Positions 53,121-60,781 of a DNA stretch of 64,000 bases are shown in pieces. The translations under genes and the position numbers were made by a program. Positions within the stretch are counted from its first letter, which is position 1; each line of letters begins with the position of its first letter. This stretch comes from Brevibacillus agri. Lineage in GTDB: Bacteria; Bacillota; Bacilli; Brevibacillales; Brevibacillaceae. The notes beneath the pieces were generated by a model. That model was not told the origin of the DNA, searched no databases, and saw only the letters and a list, made by a program, of their open reading frames with translations. The stretch spans positions 1,341,001 to 1,405,000 of the forward strand of contig NZ_CP026363.1 in assembly GCF_004117055.1 (NCBI RefSeq). The letters are read 5' to 3'.

Positions 53121-54463
53121 GATTCATCACCATAACCCGTGCTAGACATTGAAAAAACGCAGATGTTCCTTTATCGTGGGAGTTGTCGAGACAACCACTG
53201 AAAAGGAGGAAATCTGCGTTGTGCCTTGATTTTAGCACAGACTTTATCAGACTTCCATCATTCCATCTCACACATTGGGAAAAAACAAAGGAAACGGATT
53301 GGATCGCTGTTCTGGAACCGCATTCTGCCTGTCATCTTTGTCCGATCTGTCTCCGAGCCAGTACCAACCATGCCCGTCCTGGACGGCGTATTCTTCGTCA
53401 TCGTTTCGTTCCTGCTTGGGGGACCGTCTGGGTATCCGTTCCCGTGTATCGCCAGCGCTGTGCGAGTTGTGGGCTTACATGGACAGTGGAATGGAACGGT
53501 ATCCCGCCTCGAGGATTGGTCACCTCTGCTTTTCAAGAGATGGCGGTGGATATGTGCCGCGGCCGGGATTTGCTCTCTGTTGCCAAGCAATTGAGTGCGG
53601 CCTACTCGACACTTGAACGCTGGTACTACCAACTGGCCCCCCAACGCCTTGCTCAACCAAAAGAACATGAAGCTCCTGAAGTGGTCTGTCTGGATGAGTT
53701 TGCGTTGCAAAAAGGACATAAGTACGGCGTGAACCTCATGGATGCTCAAACCGGTCATATCTGGCAAGTCACAGAAGGACGTTCACGTGAACAGGTACGA
53801 AACGCCCTGCAGCAATGGCCCTTTCGTAAGGCTCCCCATGTAGTTGTCACGGATTTGGCTCCAGGAATGGCTGAAACAGTACGCCAGGTCTGGAAGCATA
53901 CCCTTGTGGTAGCAGATAAATTTCACGTGATCCAGCTTTTCTCGAAAGCGTTGGAAGCTACCCGAAAACGCACTCATGCTCGTGGAACACATCGTCGGGG
54001 CAGACATGAGCAACGCCTGCTCCATACGATCCCTGACAAGCTGAAGCCCGAAGAGCTTCAGGAACTGAAGATTTGGTTAGCAGAAGATCCACACCTCAAA
54101 CGACTCTACTTTGCGCTTCAAGACATAAGAACCGTGTATGCCGTTCAAAACCCAAGAGACAGGCGAGGAAGCACTTCAGAAATGGATTGACGACCATCTC
54201 TATTCTCCGACTCCTGCGGTTCGTTCCATTGCCAAAACGATTGTCCAGTGGCGAGAGCCCATTTAGAATGATTTCTCCTTTCGGGTAACGAATGCCAAGA
54301 TTGAAGGGACACACAACAAAGTGAGGGTAATCAAACGAAGAGCCTACGGCTACCGCAATCTAGAGAGATTCAAGATTCGCATTAGACTGGAGTGTAAACC
54401 GGCTACATAACTACGAAAAACTGCGATAGAGGGAGATCAAGCACGTTTTACGGTGAAGAGCTA
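53121..54463 (+). mobile_element. ISL3-family insertion sequence, copy 2 (about 1.34 kb, inactive)
   Basis: It has the same outer ends as copy 1 at 13721, the same length within a base, and the same gene order. The first 39 bases are identical to copy 1, but the coding parts have clearly diverged, so the copies are not a recent duplication. No clear target duplication was seen. Confidence 0.8.
53219..54410 (+). pseudogene. ISL3 transposase with a frameshift and a nonsense codon
   Basis: TTG start after AAAAGGAGG; zinc-finger cysteines (CPIC, CASC) and the first two catalytic Asp (VCLDEFALQKG, VVTDLAPGMAE) are intact. Near 54148-54151 one extra A in CAAAACCC shifts the frame and stops it at 54190. 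In the restored frame a TAG at about 54264 replaces the Gln codon seen in copy 1 (WRQSVQNYF against WREPI-stop-NDF). The catalytic Glu segment KIEGTHNKVRVIKRRAYG lies beyond both lesions. The full frame would give 396 residues. Confidence 0.88.
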
Positions 54464-54590
54464 AAAATTATACAATTTGGAAAAAGAAGTAAAAAGCCCC
54501 TCCACAAGAAAACGCCGCAAGCACAACAAACAGCCCCGGCCCGAATGGGAATCGGACCAGGGCTGCATCACCCATGCTGGAAAAGCCAAA

Positions 54591-54923
54591 CTATTGATAC
54601 GGAAACTGACTGGAGTAGCCGGAGAACTGCTGGTAAGCTTGCTGCAGCTTTTGCTGTTCCTCCGCTTCGAGCTTGTACCAGCCTTTTTGGAACATGAGGT
54701 TGAACGTATCGCGCGCCGACTGGTGCGTCTCGTTCAACAGTTGCAGCATGTCGCTGTACAGTTGCTGGTGGCTCATCTCGCGCACCGCGACGTTCAGGCT
54801 GTCGGTGACGTATTTGCAGGTCGCCAGACAATCGTTGAGAAAATCGCGGTCATTCATTTGCGGCCCTTTGATTTGCGGCAACTGTCCGGATTGCGGGTTT
54901 GCGATCTGGTTTTGGTTTGGCAT
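54591..54923 (-). CDS. CotF-like spore coat protein
   Basis: A 110-residue protein of the coat F group: MNDRDFLNDCLATCKYVTDS, LNVAVREMSHQQLYSDML, QLLNETHQSARDTFNLMFQK, GWYKLEAEEQQKLQQAYQQF. The helical ferritin-like pattern and Gln/Tyr-rich tail fit. It follows another CotF-like gene by 15 bases on the same strand, with GGAGGAG before the ATG; both are probably made in the mother cell late in sporulation. Confidence 0.82.
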   Translation of the reverse strand: MPNQNQIANPQSGQLPQIKGPQMNDRDFLNDCLATCKYVTDSLNVAVREMSHQQLYSDMLQLLNETHQSARDTFNLMFQKGWYKLEAEEQQKLQQAYQQFSGYSSQFPYQ

Positions 54924-54938
54924 CCTTGTTCTCCTCCC

Positions 54939-55247
54939 TTACTGCATCTGTTGTTGCTGTTGTTGGGATTGGGTCTGCGGCAAGGTCGCCATGACGGCTG
55001 TGTTGTTGTTTTGCAGGTGGGAGAGCAGCTTTTCGTAGTGCTGCTGGTGCATGCGGCCCGTTTTCTCCAGACATTGCTTCACGTCCGGGTCTGTGGCTTG
55101 CTGGGCAAAGAAATGCAGCTTTTTAAAGGCGAGCAGCTCCCAGGACAACGCATCTTTCAGGTAGCTCAAGTCTTTGGTCGTGATGACTTTGGGCGGCTCG
55201 GGAATCGGCGCTTGTTGAAAAGGCGTGGAAGACATGATGGATGGCAT
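54939..55247 (-). CDS. CotF-like spore coat protein, second gene
   Basis: A 102-residue protein: a proline-rich start (QAPIPEPPKVITTKDLSYLK), a four-helix-like core (DALSWELLAFKKLHFFAQQA, CLEKTGRMHQQHYEKLLSHL) and a poly-Gln tail. The start at 55247 has AAAGGAG 7 bases upstream, so the longer open frame is rejected. It is the first gene of the two-gene coat operon. Confidence 0.8.
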   Translation of the reverse strand: MPSIMSSTPFQQAPIPEPPKVITTKDLSYLKDALSWELLAFKKLHFFAQQATDPDVKQCLEKTGRMHQQHYEKLLSHLQNNNTAVMATLPQTQSQQQQQQMQ

Positions 55248-55322
55248 CTGATTGCTCCTTTCATGTGTGATACACGTATAGGATGGGCAACAAGACAGCA
55301 AGTAACCCTGCCTCTTTCCGCC

Positions 55323-55355
55323 AAAAAAAGAACCGATCCGAGAAAGGACCGGTTC
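55323..55355 (-). terminator. Intrinsic terminator of the P-loop/Asp23-like gene
   Basis: GAACCGGTCC pairs with GGATCGGTTC (one G-U pair), a 6-base loop, then seven T on the minus strand, directly after the stop. Confidence 0.85.
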
Positions 55356-55357
55356 CG

Positions 55358-56173
55358 CTATTTTGCAGAGGCGAGCTCCAGCGAGGCGACCTGAATGTCG
55401 ATGCTGGCCGGGGCGATGTTGAGGCAAAAGCTGGCTTCCTTGTGCAAATCTTCCTGAATGTCCCGGATCAATCGGGTCATATCCGCCAAAAAAGGCAGCT
55501 TGAGGGCCAGCGTGATCTGCAGGCGAGGCAAATCGTCGAAGGAAAAGGCAACTTTGACGACCTGGCTGACTTCTTCGTAACGGCTGCAAGCAGCCAGCGT
55601 AATTTTGCGCAGCACTTGGGGATGAATCAGGATGCGGCCGCCGGAAAAAGGCGGGTGAACCACGGTCGATTCGCCGATGACTTCCTTTTTCGAGCTGAAA
55701 ATGCGGGTGGCAGAAGCAATCAGCCGCTGCAAATAGTCTTTTTCAACCTCGACCCGCGGGATCGGGATGACGTGCCTGCCCATCGTCTCCCGCACGTAGC
55801 GCGCCGCCTCGATTTCCTGCGGCGGCTTGATGGACTCGATGGGAATGTATTCAATAGAAGCAGGAAGGTGCAGCGCCTCGACAATCCGTGTAATCATGCG
55901 CTGCGACGTACCGAGAATCAGCAAGCGTCCCGGCTGAATCTGCTCCAGGCTGCGCCGCACTTCCTCTGCGTGCTCGTCGTAGTGAAAAATCGCCCGCTTG
56001 ACCGCCTGGATTTTTGTCTTTTCGTACTTGGCGGAGGTACCAGCCACCTTGCGACCCTGGTAGATCAGGATGCCGTCGTCAATAATGGCGTCGATATTCA
56101 TGCGGTGGGCGAGTTCTAGTGCACTGGAGCTTTTTCCTGTACCACTGGTGCCGTACAAGGCGTAGATTTCCAT
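55358..56173 (-). CDS. P-loop NTPase fused to an Asp23/Gls24-like domain
   Basis: A 271-residue protein. Walker A GTSGTGKSSSALE at residues 8-20 starts an ATP-binding half, with ILGTSQRMITRIVEALHLP further on. From about residue 170 the sequence changes to an Asp23/Gls24-like module (GGRILIHPQVLRKITLAACS, YEEVSQVVKVAFSFDD, DIQEDLHKEASFCLNIAPAS). Asp23 proteins are cell-envelope-associated stress proteins in Firmicutes; joined to a P-loop domain the role is unknown. No clear Walker B was identified. The gene stands alone with its own terminator. Confidence 0.7.
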   Translation of the reverse strand: MEIYALYGTSGTGKSSSALELAHRMNIDAIIDDGILIYQGRKVAGTSAKYEKTKIQAVKRAIFHYDEHAEEVRRSLEQIQPGRLLILGTSQRMITRIVEALHLPASIEYIPIESIKPPQEIEAARYVRETMGRHVIPIPRVEVEKDYLQRLIASATRIFSSKKEVIGESTVVHPPFSGGRILIHPQVLRKITLAACSRYEEVSQVVKVAFSFDDLPRLQITLALKLPFLADMTRLIRDIQEDLHKEASFCLNIAPASIDIQVASLELASAK

Positions 56174-56308
56174 CGGATACCTCCCTCGTTAAGCTTCTCG
56201 CAAAAAATAGGGCAACGGTGCGCCTGCTTGCGTGCGCGCCCGGACATGCTTTGTTTCAACATGGTAACGCACAGGCGGCTCACGAAGCAACCATCTTTGC
56301 GAAAAGCT

Positions 56309-56328
56309 CTTACCGATACTTACCGATA
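56309..56328. repeat. 10-base tandem duplication over the proC stop codon
   Basis: CTTACCGATA occurs twice in a row; read on the minus strand the repeat contains the terminal codons YR and the TAA stop. The second unit lies in the untranslated region. Confidence 0.85.
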
Positions 56329-57162
56329 CTGCGCGCCCATTTCCCTGGCGCGCTCTGTCGCCCGCAGGATGGCTGCTGTTACCGCCTCCTGGAACCGATA
56401 CGACTCCAACACTTCCAGCCCGGCCTGCGTAGTTCCGCCAGGGCTGGTGACTTGCCTGCGCAGCAGGGCAGGCTCTGCGCGCGTCTCCAGCAGCATATGG
56501 GCCGCGCCGATCACCGTCTGGAGAGTGAGCTGACGGGCCATTTCCCGATCCAGCCCGGCTGTCGCGCCTGCTCCCATCATCGCTTCGACCAAATAATAAA
56601 TATAGGCCGGGCCGCTGCCGGACAGCCCTGTGATAATATCGAGCTCTTCTTCTGCGACTTCGTGCACGGTGCCAATCGCTTCAAACAGGCGCGTGGCGAG
56701 TGCAAGCTGCTCGGGACGCACAAACGCATTGGCACTCAGTCCTGTCGCAGACAGCCCGACAGCGGATGACGTGTTCGGCATCGTGCGAATGATCGGGCAG
56801 TCTACCCCCAGCCATTCGCCGATCAGGCTGGTAGGAACGCCTGCGATGACGGAAATAATCAGTTGGTTCGGAGAGATGGTTCCGCGCAGTTCGAGTAGCG
56901 CTTCCCCCGCGTCCTTTGGCTTGATCGCCAAAATCAAAATGTCAGATGCCCGCGCCACCGCCAGTTTATCCGTGGTGGCGTTGACCCCGTATGCGTCCGT
57001 CAACTGCTCCAGGCGCTCCGAGTTGTTGCGGTTGGTGACGAAGATGCGGTCTGCTGCGGTCAAGCCTTTTTTCAAAATCCCCGAAAGCATCGCTTCCACG
57101 ATGGAGCCTGCGCCGAGAAAGCCGATTTGTCCGGTTGTTATACTGGCTGTTTGGTTGCTCAT
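56320..57162 (-). CDS. proC: Pyrroline-5-carboxylate reductase
   Basis: A 280-residue ProC, reducing 1-pyrroline-5-carboxylate to proline with NADPH. The nucleotide motif IGFLGAGSIVEAMLSGILKKG is at residues 13-33, and the C-terminal family region SGSGPAYIYYLVEAMMGAGATAGL and QVTSPGGTTQAGLEVLE is complete. It is the third gene of proBAC, 20 bases after proA. A 10-base tandem duplication sits at its stop codon. Confidence 0.95.
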   Translation of the reverse strand: MSNQTASITTGQIGFLGAGSIVEAMLSGILKKGLTAADRIFVTNRNNSERLEQLTDAYGVNATTDKLAVARASDILILAIKPKDAGEALLELRGTISPNQLIISVIAGVPTSLIGEWLGVDCPIIRTMPNTSSAVGLSATGLSANAFVRPEQLALATRLFEAIGTVHEVAEEELDIITGLSGSGPAYIYYLVEAMMGAGATAGLDREMARQLTLQTVIGAAHMLLETRAEPALLRRQVTSPGGTTQAGLEVLESYRFQEAVTAAILRATERAREMGAQYR

Positions 57163-57182
57163 CGCTGTTTCCTCCCTTTGGA

Positions 57183-58451
57183 CTAGCGGATTTGTCCCGT
57201 TCCACGTACGACGTACTTGTAGGAAGTGAGTGCGGGCAAGCCCATCGGCCCGCGGGCGTGCAGCTTTTGCGTGCTGATCCCGATCTCGGCGCCAAAGCCG
57301 AACTCTCCGCCGTCGGTAAAGCGGGTAGAGGCGTTGTGATAGACAGCAGTTGCGTCGACAGCGGCCAAAAATTGATTCGCTGCGGCGTCGTCTTCCGTCA
57401 CGATCGCTTCGGAGTGGCCTGAGCTGTGCGCGGTTATATGCTCAATCGCTTCGGCCAGACTGTCGACTGTGCGGACAGCCAGGATGAGAGCGGAGTATTC
57501 CGTATCCCAGTCCGCCGCCTGGGCTTCGCGGAGGAGAGAAGCGAGCTCATGGTGCGCCTCTCGCGTTTTGGCGCAGACGCGCAGTTCGACTCCTTGATCG
57601 AGCAGCTTTTGCAGCAGCGCCCGCTGGTAGTCGTGCGGCCAGTTGCGGTGGAGGAGCAGCGTTTCGGCTGCGTTGCAGACCGCGGGGCGGCTTGTTTTCG
57701 CGTTGACGGCGATTGCTTCTGCCATGTCGTAGCGGGCCGCCTGATCGATATAGATGTGGCAGTTGCCTACTCCCGTTTCCAGCACAGGCACGCTGGACAG
57801 TTGCAGCACGCGCTGGATCAGACCTGCTCCGCCGCGCGGGATGATGACGTCGACCAGTCCGTTTGCGGTACATAACAGGTCGACAGAAGCATGCTCGGCA
57901 AAAGGCAGGTATTGCACAGCGGCTTCGGGTAGTTCTGTCGCTGCCAGCGCCTCGCGAATCGAGCGGGCCAGCGCGACGTTGCTGTTGACGGCGCTGTGGC
58001 TGCCGCGCAGGACGATCGCATTGCCGGTTTTCAGCGCAATCGCCGCCGCATCGACGGTGACATTCGGCCGAGCTTCGTACACCATGCCGATGACGCCAAG
58101 CGGGACGCGAATCTGTTCGATGACGAGACCATTCGGCTGCGTCCAGGAATCCATTTTTTGTCCGACAGGATCATCGAGAGCGGCCAAGGAAGCCAGGCTT
58201 TCCACGAGATCGTGTACACGCGCAGGTGTCAGGCGCAGGCGGTCGAGGTAAGAGGCGGGCTGTCCGTCAACTTCCGCCTTGGCGATATCCAGCTCGTTTG
58301 CCGCCAGGATGGTTTTTTCGTCGGCCAGCAGCTTTTCGCCGATGGCAGCCAATGCCCTGTCTTTTTCTGTACGGGTCAAGAGCGCCATTTGCCGTGAAGC
58401 CTGTTTAGCCAGCGAGAGTTGTGCATACACTTTTTCTTTCAAGCTTTCCAT
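57183..58451 (-). CDS. proA: Gamma-glutamyl phosphate reductase
   Basis: A 422-residue ProA that reduces gamma-glutamyl phosphate to glutamate semialdehyde. Seen are PLGVIGMVYEARPNVTVDAA near residue 107, the nucleotide-binding region VLRGSHSAVNSNVAL, and the catalytic Cys in KTSRPAVCNAAETLLLH. The start at 58451 has AAAGGAG; an upstream in-frame ATG at 58514 lies inside proB and is rejected. It follows proB by 32 bases. Confidence 0.96.
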   Translation of the reverse strand: MESLKEKVYAQLSLAKQASRQMALLTRTEKDRALAAIGEKLLADEKTILAANELDIAKAEVDGQPASYLDRLRLTPARVHDLVESLASLAALDDPVGQKMDSWTQPNGLVIEQIRVPLGVIGMVYEARPNVTVDAAAIALKTGNAIVLRGSHSAVNSNVALARSIREALAATELPEAAVQYLPFAEHASVDLLCTANGLVDVIIPRGGAGLIQRVLQLSSVPVLETGVGNCHIYIDQAARYDMAEAIAVNAKTSRPAVCNAAETLLLHRNWPHDYQRALLQKLLDQGVELRVCAKTREAHHELASLLREAQAADWDTEYSALILAVRTVDSLAEAIEHITAHSSGHSEAIVTEDDAAANQFLAAVDATAVYHNASTRFTDGGEFGFGAEIGISTQKLHARGPMGLPALTSYKYVVRGTGQIR

Positions 58452-58483
58452 TGTCTCCCCATCTCCTTTTCTCTCTTTCGGTT

Positions 58484-59596
58484 TCAAAACGTTTTCGAGC
58501 GTGCCGGGGTCCATTCATCGCGGTGGATTACGGTACCGCTGCGTCGCGTCAAGCCAGAAGGTGAGAGCGAATCCAGGAGCTGGGCAGCGCCGTACCTGCT
58601 GACGCCCCGGCCGATCAGAGCGCCTTCGCAATACACCTCGATAACCTCGCCTTCCTCGAACATCCCCGAGACATCGCGTACGCCCGCCAGAAGCAGGCTG
58701 CGGCTTTTTTCCAAAATCGCTTCCGCCGCCCCGCTGTCGACCGTGATCGTGCCGCGAACAGGGGAGTGGAGCGCGATCCATTGCTTGCGCGTGGAAACGC
58801 CGGCTGTTGCAGGGGATTCGGGACGGTAGCCGACGTAGGTGCCATCGCCGTTGCCCGCAAGCACCTTGATAAGATCAGCCGATTGCGCCAATTTTCCGAT
58901 AAAGCTCGGGATTCCCAAGCCTTGCGCCGTTTTCGCGGCGATCAGCTTCGAGCGCATTCCGCCCGTGCCGAGCTGTGACGCGCCTCCTGCCAACGCCTCG
59001 ATTTCCTCTGTCACCTGCTCAAGCGAGCCGATTCGCCGGGCGTCCGGATGGTGGCGCGGGTCTTTGTCGTACAGTCCGTTCGTATCGGTGAGAATCATGT
59101 ACAAATCAGCGTGGACCAGTCCGGCCACCAGCGCGCCGAGCATGTCGTTGTCGCCAAAGGTCAGCTCCGCCACAGATACCGTGTCATTTTCGTTGATGAT
59201 CGGCAAAATGTTTTTGTCCAAAAGCAGCGACAACGTTTGAAAAGCGTGCTGGTAGCGCTCGCGATCGGAGAAGTCTCCCCGCGTCAGCAAAATTTGCGCC
59301 ACGCTGAAGTGATGGGCCGCGAACATTTGCGTGTACGTCTGCATCAGCAGGCTTTGCCCGATGGCTGCGGCGGCCTGCTTGGCAGCGAGAGAGCGGGGGC
59401 GCTGCTGGTAGCCAAGACGTTGATAACCGCTCGCGACCGCGCCCGAGGAAACGAGCACGACCTGGTGCCCTACCTCGCGCAGCTTGCTGACAGCGGAGAC
59501 GAGCAAGGACATTTTCGCCGGGTCCACGCCACCGCCTGCCGCGGCAATCGAACTGCTGCCCACTTTGACAACCAAACGCATTTTTCCCTTCTTCAT
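58484..59596 (-). CDS. proB: Glutamate 5-kinase
   Basis: A 370-residue ProB: an amino-acid kinase domain (VVKVGSSSIAAAGGGVDPAK, VLVSSGAVASGYQRLG-like, NENDTVSVAELTFGDNDMLG, ILTDTNGLYDKDPR) and a C-terminal PUA domain (about 285-360, EGEVIEVYCEGALIGRGVSR). It commits glutamate to proline synthesis and is normally feedback-inhibited by proline. First gene of proBAC, with AGGAGG 7 bases before the ATG. The T-box leader lies 46-345 bases upstream. Confidence 0.96.
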   Translation of the reverse strand: MKKGKMRLVVKVGSSSIAAAGGGVDPAKMSLLVSAVSKLREVGHQVVLVSSGAVASGYQRLGYQQRPRSLAAKQAAAAIGQSLLMQTYTQMFAAHHFSVAQILLTRGDFSDRERYQHAFQTLSLLLDKNILPIINENDTVSVAELTFGDNDMLGALVAGLVHADLYMILTDTNGLYDKDPRHHPDARRIGSLEQVTEEIEALAGGASQLGTGGMRSKLIAAKTAQGLGIPSFIGKLAQSADLIKVLAGNGDGTYVGYRPESPATAGVSTRKQWIALHSPVRGTITVDSGAAEAILEKSRSLLLAGVRDVSGMFEEGEVIEVYCEGALIGRGVSRYGAAQLLDSLSPSGLTRRSGTVIHRDEWTPARSKTF

Positions 59597-59641
59597 ACTT
59601 TGACCTCCTAGCACTTACTTGTATCCATGTGAAAAAGCAAT

Positions 59642-59945
59642 AAAAAAAGCCCAATCGTCTCTTTGATAAGGACGAAAGGGCATGTTAGCCTTACGCGGTA
59701 CCACCTTAATTGACGTCTGCCGACAGAAGATACCCGTCAAGTCGCAAACATCCAGCTCTCTTTCTTTGATAACAGGTGAAAGAAACCCGTCCAGGTCTTC
59801 CCTGGATGCTCTGGGGTGGGTTCAAACCGATTCATGGACGAAACCTCTCAGCCGTTGGATTTCGCTCTCTGGACCTGAAGGGCGGTTTTACTGTTCCCCG
59901 TCATTGCCGCTCGCTATGCGCTTGTTAATTCACTATTATTCGCCG
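59642..59945 (-). promoter_or_regulatory. T-box riboswitch (tRNA-Pro specific) upstream of proBAC
   Basis: Read on the minus strand, the conserved T-box AAGGTGGTACCGCG is at 59694-59707, followed by the terminator stem GCCC..GGGC and a T-run at 59642-59682. The stem I region has the AGAGAGCGAA motif. In the specifier loop GAA-CCC-ACC the triplet CCC (59818-59820) codes proline, matching the genes it controls. Uncharged tRNA-Pro should favour antitermination. The right end (near 59945) is approximate. Confidence 0.9.
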
Positions 59946-59970
59946 GGCCTATAAGAAATGTCAAGAGGGT

Positions 59971-60585
59971 TTATTGAAATTGTTCGCTGCCGTACGTGCC
60001 CGATCTTGTTTTGATCTCGAACCGCTTCGTCTTCTGATCGCGAACGAGGCGGTAGTGCAGCGTGCGGTCGGAGGCAAAAGACGAGTCGGTCGCGTCCTGG
60101 ACCGTTACGTTCAGCTCGCCGTTTGCTTTGGCGACCGTCGTATTGCGGACGGAGATCAGGACCGGATAGTCGACGCGCGGAATCGCAATGTACAGCTTTT
60201 CCTTGACCAGCTTCGTCGTCAGCTTGTCGTACATCGCCAGCGCGAGCGGCGTGCTCCAGAAACGGCCGAAGTACTTGACGATTTTGTCCTTGCTGTCAAA
60301 TTGCTTCGGCAGCTCGCGGAACGCCAGCCCGTCCTCGTAGACGGTTTTGCCTTTGGCGTTGTCGAGCGCGGCGAAGTACACTTCCTCCAGCAGATGTTCG
60401 GCACGGTTGAGGAACAGGACGACATCCATTTTGTTGTCGCCGAGCTTCTGAATGGCAGACAGCTTCACGGGCTTGCTCTGGGCTTTCGTGTTGCTTTTGC
60501 TCTCTTCCTTGGCGGGAAGGGCACAGCCTGTAACGATCAGGGAGAGGGACAGAAAAATCATCCATTTTTTCCAGTTGGTTTTCAT
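59971..60585 (-). CDS. Conserved lipoprotein, IseA-like or unknown
   Basis: A 204-residue lipoprotein: signal MKTNWKKWMIFLSLSLIVTG with the lipidated Cys21 in the lipobox VTGC, then a Lys/Ser-rich linker and a globular domain with FLNRAEHLLEEVYFAALDNA, IVKYFGRFWSTPLALAMYDK and YIAIPRVDYPVLISVRNTT. The pattern recalls the DL-endopeptidase-inhibitor (IseA) group, but this is from memory and uncertain. The start at 60585 has GTGAGGTG. It lies between the proBAC leader and a divergent gene. Confidence 0.65.
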   Translation of the reverse strand: MKTNWKKWMIFLSLSLIVTGCALPAKEESKSNTKAQSKPVKLSAIQKLGDNKMDVVLFLNRAEHLLEEVYFAALDNAKGKTVYEDGLAFRELPKQFDSKDKIVKYFGRFWSTPLALAMYDKLTTKLVKEKLYIAIPRVDYPVLISVRNTTVAKANGELNVTVQDATDSSFASDRTLHYRLVRDQKTKRFEIKTRSGTYGSEQFQ

Positions 60586-60781
60586 TGCGCACCTCACTTG
60601 AAAAGCCGTTGTTACCTGTTAGCGTGTGTGGCAAAAGAAATAAATAACCATGTGAAAAGATGCCAGTTGAAAAACAGGGCGGGATCACGGAAAAAGGAAA
60701 CAGGATAGGGGTTGTCTGACAACGGGATTATGTCTATCATGGAGAGAGTTGTGCAGATCGAACGATTGAGGTGGAAAATAC

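Follow-up and report, generated by a model that had tools for sequence, protein, structure and literature searches.

The protein encoded by a gene designated here as X, located in the window (the whole stretch of 64,000 nucleotides of Brevibacillus agri DNA that was analysed), was found to combine an N-terminal P-loop domain with a C-terminal Asp23 domain. This pairing had been proposed in an earlier, sequence-only reading of the window, and it is borne out by the Walker A motif, by PF03780 matches among the relatives of X and by hhalign comparison of family profiles. The same reading knew of no characterised protein of this kind, and none was encountered in the open-licence PMC literature, among the matches listed. 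From comparative sequence evidence, X is a real gene, old and single-copy, and no local oddity, since all 39 genomes of the order were shown to carry an orthologue, with one match each and 59–100 % identity. We tentatively favour a role for X as a soluble, nucleotide-gated Asp23 protein, which would act as a housekeeping regulator and not as a spore protein. Asp23 proteins are described in PMC6954212 as abundant and important in Gram-positive bacteria, with a molecular function that is unclear. An Asp23 domain tied to an invariant, predicted nucleotide-binding site offers a handle on that function: nucleotide probably controls one Asp23 module or more. The features of gene X and of its surroundings are listed in Table 1.

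Table 1. Gene X, its predicted domains and motifs, and adjacent features in the window
Feature	Position	Strand	Basis
Gene X, P-loop/Asp23 protein, 271 aa	55358..56173	-	ORF, ATG start, open to stop; orthologues
N-terminal P-loop domain, residues 1-165	55679..56173	-	AF2 model; weak matches to P-loop kinase folds
Walker A GTSGTGKS, residues 8-15	56129..56152	-	Conservation in 157 distinct sequences
DDG at residues 32-34 (putative Mg2+/catalytic site)	56072..56080	-	157/157 sequences
GTS, residues 88-90, end of predicted strand 84-88 (usual Walker B place)	55904..55912	-	Conservation; model
C-terminal Asp23 domain, residues 179-265	55379..55639	-	hhalign; predicted alpha-beta-beta-alpha-beta
proC, next gene upstream, 146 bp from X	56320..57162	-	TIGR00112 281.7 bits, cut-off 196.75
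proA	57183..58514	-	TIGR00407 487.9 bits, cut-off 317.45
proB (presumed), glutamate 5-kinase	58484..59614	-	PF00696 6.7e-48, PF01472 2.2e-12 (AA_kinase + PUA), place
Intrinsic-terminator-like hairpin directly 3' of X stop	55329..55356	-	11 pairs, 6 G-C, then T run
Coat-like gene, downstream of terminator-like site	54942..55250	-	PF11553 DUF3231 26.1 bits, below cut-off 29.6
CotF-domain gene	54591..54923	-	PF07875 2.6e-22

Distribution and general features of X

Beyond the order, X was detected in 168 of 398 genomes sampled evenly across the phylum, including one genome with two matches (G191) and one with a weak match of 1.7e-4 (G122). When 299 genomes were sampled evenly across the class, full-length X (query aligned from residues 1–4 to residue 162 or beyond, E<1e-45) was present in at least 64 of them among the matches listed, i.e. 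in 26 of 26 from its own order and in at least 38 of 273 from the others; the remaining matches listed aligned to the C-terminal part only. Within three families (f4, f144 and f158), the presence of X was shown to be patchy, which suggests losses.

A mobile-element origin of X was rejected, as a single match was obtained in 72,556 plasmid records, and no relative was encoded by any of 50,697 phage records or by any of 600 viral-contig pattern matches. The plasmid match is located on a 285 kb replicon of Monoglobus pectinilyticus, and its NCBI product (WP_158648977.1) is 'Asp23/Gls24 family envelope stress response protein', a name that covers no more than the C-terminal half of this relative.

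The window protein has no strongly hydrophobic stretch, its best 19-residue hydropathy being 1.23. Values of at least 1.6 (up to 2.0) were observed in 11 of 157 X members, and a membrane stretch is therefore possible in some of them. One relative (L225; G630:C9:91556-92041) exhibited the usual P-loop half, with a match that ends at residue 162 in a frame of 414–420 aa; its Asp23 domain may possibly have been replaced.

Assignment of the C-terminal domain

When searched against Pfam, the window protein alone gave sub-threshold matches only, mostly to P-loop families, and no Asp23 match even at E<=10. The assignment of its C-terminal half is based on its relatives: PF03780 was matched by 47 of 55 aligned relatives at E<=0.01 (best 5.7e-13), and hhalign comparison of the 55-member family profile with an Asp23 profile (18 PF03780 loci) scored 98.8 % (E 1.3e-16) over residues 179–265. 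Compared alone, the C-terminal half of the family scored 99.2 % (E 1.1e-19) with the Asp23 profile and at most 1.8 % with 11 other control profiles; the Asp23-like nature that had been attributed to this half was thus upheld. The Asp23 profile was matched by 145 of 157 distinct family C-termini at E<=0.01, compared with 0 of 157 shuffled C-termini, the other 12 family C-termini having no match at this threshold. In a larger search at a stricter E<=1e-3, 97 of 124 X frames matched the profile, and searches of genomes with the family profile also retrieved shorter frames aligning to the C-terminal part, with E down to 5e-12. Judged by these profile matches, the C-terminal domain of X is homologous to the Asp23/Gls24 family (PF03780, DUF322), to which YqhY, YloU and S. 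aureus Asp23 belong. The window's own subfamily has drifted until Pfam misses Asp23, and its C-terminus may therefore have changed partner.

X differs from these family members in its architecture. YqhY, YloU and S. aureus Asp23 are short proteins, and a PF03780 search of the window's own genome at E<=0.1 retrieved stand-alone Asp23 frames of 127–208 aa, which leave no room for a P-loop domain, and did not retrieve gene X (271 aa, with such a domain). According to PMC6954212, AmaP tethers S. aureus Asp23 to the membrane, and Asp23 assembles into filaments. The AmaP model (NF033218) was matched by 34 of 55 X members at E<=0.01, presumably via the shared Asp23-like part; the AmaP-like protein of the same genome contains a strongly hydrophobic stretch (2.51 over the best 19 residues), which X lacks. 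In this genome, a YqhY-like Asp23 ORF and an AmaP-like ORF occur together (L073, around C1 3559047-3560092), with an ORF that is biotin-carboxylase-like by its motif.

In one of the 124 loci searched (L215:9936-11041, minus strand), an Asp23-only ORF (101 aa, PF03780 3.3e-13) was shown to share 4 bases with the beginning of X, on account of which the two are probably co-translated. This overlap is the most direct hint that X may work with Asp23 partners.

No PDB relative of Asp23 was found by sequence at E<=0.1. The full-length model of X was poor (pTM 0.44), and its VIA list was filled by matches to the C-terminal alpha-beta-beta-alpha-beta part, mostly C-terminal domains of cation-efflux proteins with Z up to 9.1; as this arrangement is common, no function was drawn from these matches. 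In Era and Der/EngA GTPases, a P-loop domain is also followed by an alpha-beta-beta-alpha-beta domain, and the Era structures 7c1o and 1ega were among four Foldseek matches of the full X model at E<=0.001. However, the TM-scores were only 0.20–0.24 on a poor model, and no G-protein family occurred among the profile matches listed for the window protein; the likeness is likely one of shared arrangement only.

Nucleotide site and fold of the N-terminal domain

The Walker A motif GxxxxGK[ST] is present in X, with G8 and G11 conserved in 156 of 156, and G13, K14 and S15 in 157 of 157 distinct sequences. Residues K14, S15, D32, D33, G34, G45, K49, A61, S90, M93, R128, H134 and P137 are invariant among the 157 distinct sequences, and the motif set DDG/GxSxK/S-M is invariant across the family alongside the P-loop. 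This invariant residue set argues for nucleotide binding and chemistry over a relic. P-loop NTPases usually, though not universally, carry a Walker B acid where a strand beside the P-loop ends. At this place in X, i.e. the end of predicted strand 84–88, no D or E was found; the strand ends instead in GTS (residues 88–90), with T89 in 153 and S90 in all of the 157 distinct sequences. D32/D33 may perform the metal role in place of the Walker B acid.

In profile comparison, residues 1–165 scored 96.6 % with ABC, 91.7 % with cytidylate kinase, 86.3 % with DnaC, 77.3 % with MiaA, 65.7 % with HPr kinase and 62.1 % with shikimate kinase profiles, over 20–54 columns only, compared with at most 6.8 % for six unrelated profiles. 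The P-loop character claimed for this half was thus retained, on short alignments, with no family assigned. The AF2 model of the domain, derived from 11 sequences (pTM 0.69, mean pLDDT 75.5), yielded weak Foldseek matches to cytidylate, gluconate and shikimate kinases (best E 1.5e-3) and weak VIA-align matches to Clp1/polynucleotide kinases, PFK-2 and GPN GTPases (best Z 6.1, 113 residues, 3.5 Å), none of which stands out. As modelled, the domain resembles P-loop kinases in general and fits no single P-loop family.

In the nucleotide-gated mechanism that we tentatively favour, the kinase-like P-loop domain would bind ATP (or GTP)-Mg2+, with D32/D33 carrying the metal or catalytic work that is usual for the Walker B acid. 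The Asp23 domain would mediate assembly of X with itself or with other Asp23 proteins of the cell (YqhY/AmaP type) at the inner membrane face, and nucleotide binding or turnover would alter this assembly and so regulate a partner encoded nearby. That partner may differ or be shared among lineages, the best-supported candidates being the helicase-loading DnaD-DnaC/I proteins and acyl-CoA carboxylase. Weighing against this mechanism are the missing Walker B acid and the lack of fit to any one P-loop family, the variation of neighbourhoods by lineage, the single Asp23-only companion in 124 loci, the 12 of 157 C-termini that escape the Asp23 profile together with the drift of the window's subfamily, and the 11 of 157 members with a hydropathy of 1.6–2.0.

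It is somewhat unlikely, though deserving of attention, that X is an enzyme first, namely a kinase or transferase from the P-loop kinase clan that acts on small molecules or nucleic acids, with an Asp23 domain that would only dimerise or place the protein. The structure matches of the N-terminal domain are largely kinases (gluconate, cytidylate, shikimate, Clp1 and polynucleotide), and the P-loop, the next helix and the next strand are common to X and to MiaA/IPT, gluconate, cytidylate and shikimate kinases. The MiaA model TIGR00174 was matched weakly by 17 of 55 X members at E<=0.01, and by the window protein with 22.7 bits (5e-5) over residues 6–70 only. However, the fold matches are all weak, profile alignments with the small P-loop kinases do not extend past residue 63, and none of the neighbour genes recurs in every lineage read.

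Membership of three individual kinase families was rejected. For MiaA/IPT, the MiaA pattern DSxQVYRGxDIGTAK, part of which appeared in profile comparison, resembles DDGILIYQGRKVAGTSAK of X, yet the TIGR00174 score lies far below its cut-off of 148.65; MiaA was not among the best 60 of 78 PDB sequences in the family-profile search. Gluconate kinase model NF008583 gave 14.4 bits against a cut-off of 265, and HPr kinase model TIGR00679, considered because of a DD motif likeness, gave a weak 13.8 bits against a cut-off of 240. MiaA and HPr kinase were absent among the N-domain fold matches listed (Foldseek and VIA-align), which excludes nothing.

Association with dnaD and dnaC in other lineages

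Neighbourhoods outside the class were read at 95 loci (96 were fetched, and L232, with no callable X, was left out) using a crude ORF picker, by which some genes were lost, e.g. dnaD of L077, later recovered. A DnaD-type gene was located within 5 kb of X at 26 of the 95 loci, and a gene for a DnaC/I-type loader (IstB-like ATPase) at 23, both types ranking with the most frequent neighbours; all three DnaD-type neighbours tested were PF07261, and all three DnaC/I-type neighbours tested were IstB-like ATPases. X was positioned upstream of the DnaD-type gene on the same strand at 13 loci, the gap measuring -40 to 28 bp at ten of these, and divergently from it at 13 loci with gaps of 80–3070 bp. 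Single-strand X-dnaD-dnaC runs, each apparently one operon, were observed at L075, L076, L079, L082, L242, L253, L260, L264, L272, L276 and L280, with an X-dnaD gap in the range given above in 10 of 11 runs and of 156 bp in L075. In separate clades, X adjoins the same dnaD/dnaC pair in opposite orientation, and this neighbourhood offers a concrete candidate partner in many genomes.

Whole-genome counts of DnaB_2 (PF07261) were made in 50 of the 93 genomes behind the loci, of which 34 had been fetched before any neighbourhood was inspected and 16 were added later in handle order. A DnaB_2/DnaD protein was present in 35 of these 50 X genomes; its gene was located within 5 kb of X in 16 of the 35 (0.15 expected) and within 10 kb in 18 (0.29 expected), and within 5 kb in 10 of 24 among the 34 genomes fetched beforehand. 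The Poisson value of 1.7e-27 for this proximity counts genomes as independent, though they are related. In a quick tree, the co-directional and divergent arrangements each need two changes only, so that the independent events are few, put at two to four.

Random windows (380 kb from 19 of the same genomes) contained no DnaD hit and four DnaC-type hits in three windows, and flanking DNA beyond 5 kb of X (310 kb) contained two DnaD hits, two DnaC-type hits and none of the other counted families. The DnaC-type density was 26.7 per Mb near X versus 10.5 per Mb in random windows, which makes the link to DnaC less specific than that to DnaD. The counted neighbour families were picked after looking, as frequent near X, and only the genome-wide DnaB_2 count is therefore near to a fair test.

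According to PMC12548448, C. difficile lacks dnaB, a double role has been proposed for its DnaD, and its yqhY figures among the genes listed as essential. The dnaD/dnaC neighbourhoods of X bear on the reading, which we consider unlikely, that X is a primosome accessory factor acting with DnaD and the DnaC/I loader and tying helicase loading both to nucleotide state and to the membrane: the frequency of both gene types within 5 kb, the two arrangements and the genome-wide DnaB_2 proximity would be consistent with such a role, set against few independent events, 15 of 50 X genomes without a DnaB_2 protein, the DnaC-type hits in random windows, and a DnaD-type gene in 0 of 29 class loci searched, within the flanking stretch read. 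It is decidedly unlikely that X is a widely conserved envelope-side NTPase switch, whose P-loop would read the nucleotide and whose Asp23 domain would link a membrane scaffold to DnaD and DnaC/I loading, or to acyl-CoA carboxylase elsewhere; were this true, replication start or membrane-lipid supply would be coupled to the envelope.

Acyl-CoA carboxylase and other repeated neighbours

A Carboxyl_trans (acyl-CoA carboxylase) gene was observed within 5 kb of X at 10 of the 95 loci read beyond the class, in several orientations and, by reading, in about six separate places of the quick tree; all three of those tested were PF01039. Enoyl-CoA hydratase-like ORFs were often found near X in class members of other families, the one tested being ECH_1. 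In B. subtilis, mutations in acetyl-CoA carboxylase are selected when YqhY is lost, which PMC5437119 reads as YqhY restraining the enzyme. By analogy with this reading of YqhY, these observations would fit X as a regulator of biotin-dependent acyl-CoA carboxylases, a role that we consider very unlikely given that no Carboxyl_trans gene was seen within 5 kb at 85 of 95 loci and that this family was picked after neighbours were inspected.

Other families counted within 5 kb of X at the 95 loci were OGG-type DNA glycosylases (6), Rex (5), MazF-type proteins (7) and aminotransferase hits (20); in the 380 kb of random windows, Carboxyl_trans, OGG, Rex and MazF were each counted 0 times and aminotransferase once. 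At L040, L084, L226, L251 and L286, Rex is encoded 5' and an OGG-type DNA glycosylase 3' of X on the same strand, and the annotated genes of L226 overlap or nearly touch. At L087, L246, L255, L266, L274 and L283, a MazF-type toxin gene on the same strand precedes X by 17–54 bp.

The window locus and sporulation

In the window, X follows proC, proA and an ORF that we take to be proB from its AA_kinase and PUA domains and its position. No terminator-like site was detected between proC and X on the same strand, and the sole promoter-like site on the X strand (59964-59935) is located before proB; we infer a proBAC-X operon. In 16 loci chosen for showing the order proB-proA-proC-X (nine from the window's own family and seven from three other families of the class), X is located after proC on the same strand with a gap of 30–146 bp, which makes co-transcription likely in those loci; L031 was left out of the gap count, as the ORF picker had taken an overlapping ORF on the other strand for proC. 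As this arrangement is confined to a single clade (20 rows) in the family tree, it cannot define the function of X. No RNA element was found in 54000-60400 at gathering threshold, and no T-box before proB.

The hairpin directly 3' of X likely acts as a terminator before the coat-like genes, single sites being weak evidence in a region scan that gave 14 terminator-like sites versus 8.0 expected and 2 promoter-like sites versus 2.1. Spo0A_C was present in 345 of the 398 phylum-draw genomes, and X was found in 145 of 345 Spo0A-positive and 23 of 53 Spo0A-negative genomes (Fisher p=0.88), with Spo0A serving as a proxy, as sporulation may be absent from some positive genomes and a few negative ones are incomplete. 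That X is a sporulation or coat factor, as its place near coat genes had suggested to the sequence-only reading, is extremely improbable, since the CotF-like genes found 3' of X in the window and in many proBAC loci are set against the absence of a Spo0A association, the retention of X in Spo0A-negative genomes and the intervening terminator-like hairpin.

Elsewhere in the window, an ORF on the plus strand (53183-54190) resembles an ISL3-type transposase. A lipoprotein-like ORF on the minus strand (59971-60597) gave a weak match to the IseA endopeptidase inhibitor (5.5e-4, below cut-off), and a cluster of such lipoprotein-like ORFs was observed upstream of proB in 8 of 10 loci of the window's own family.
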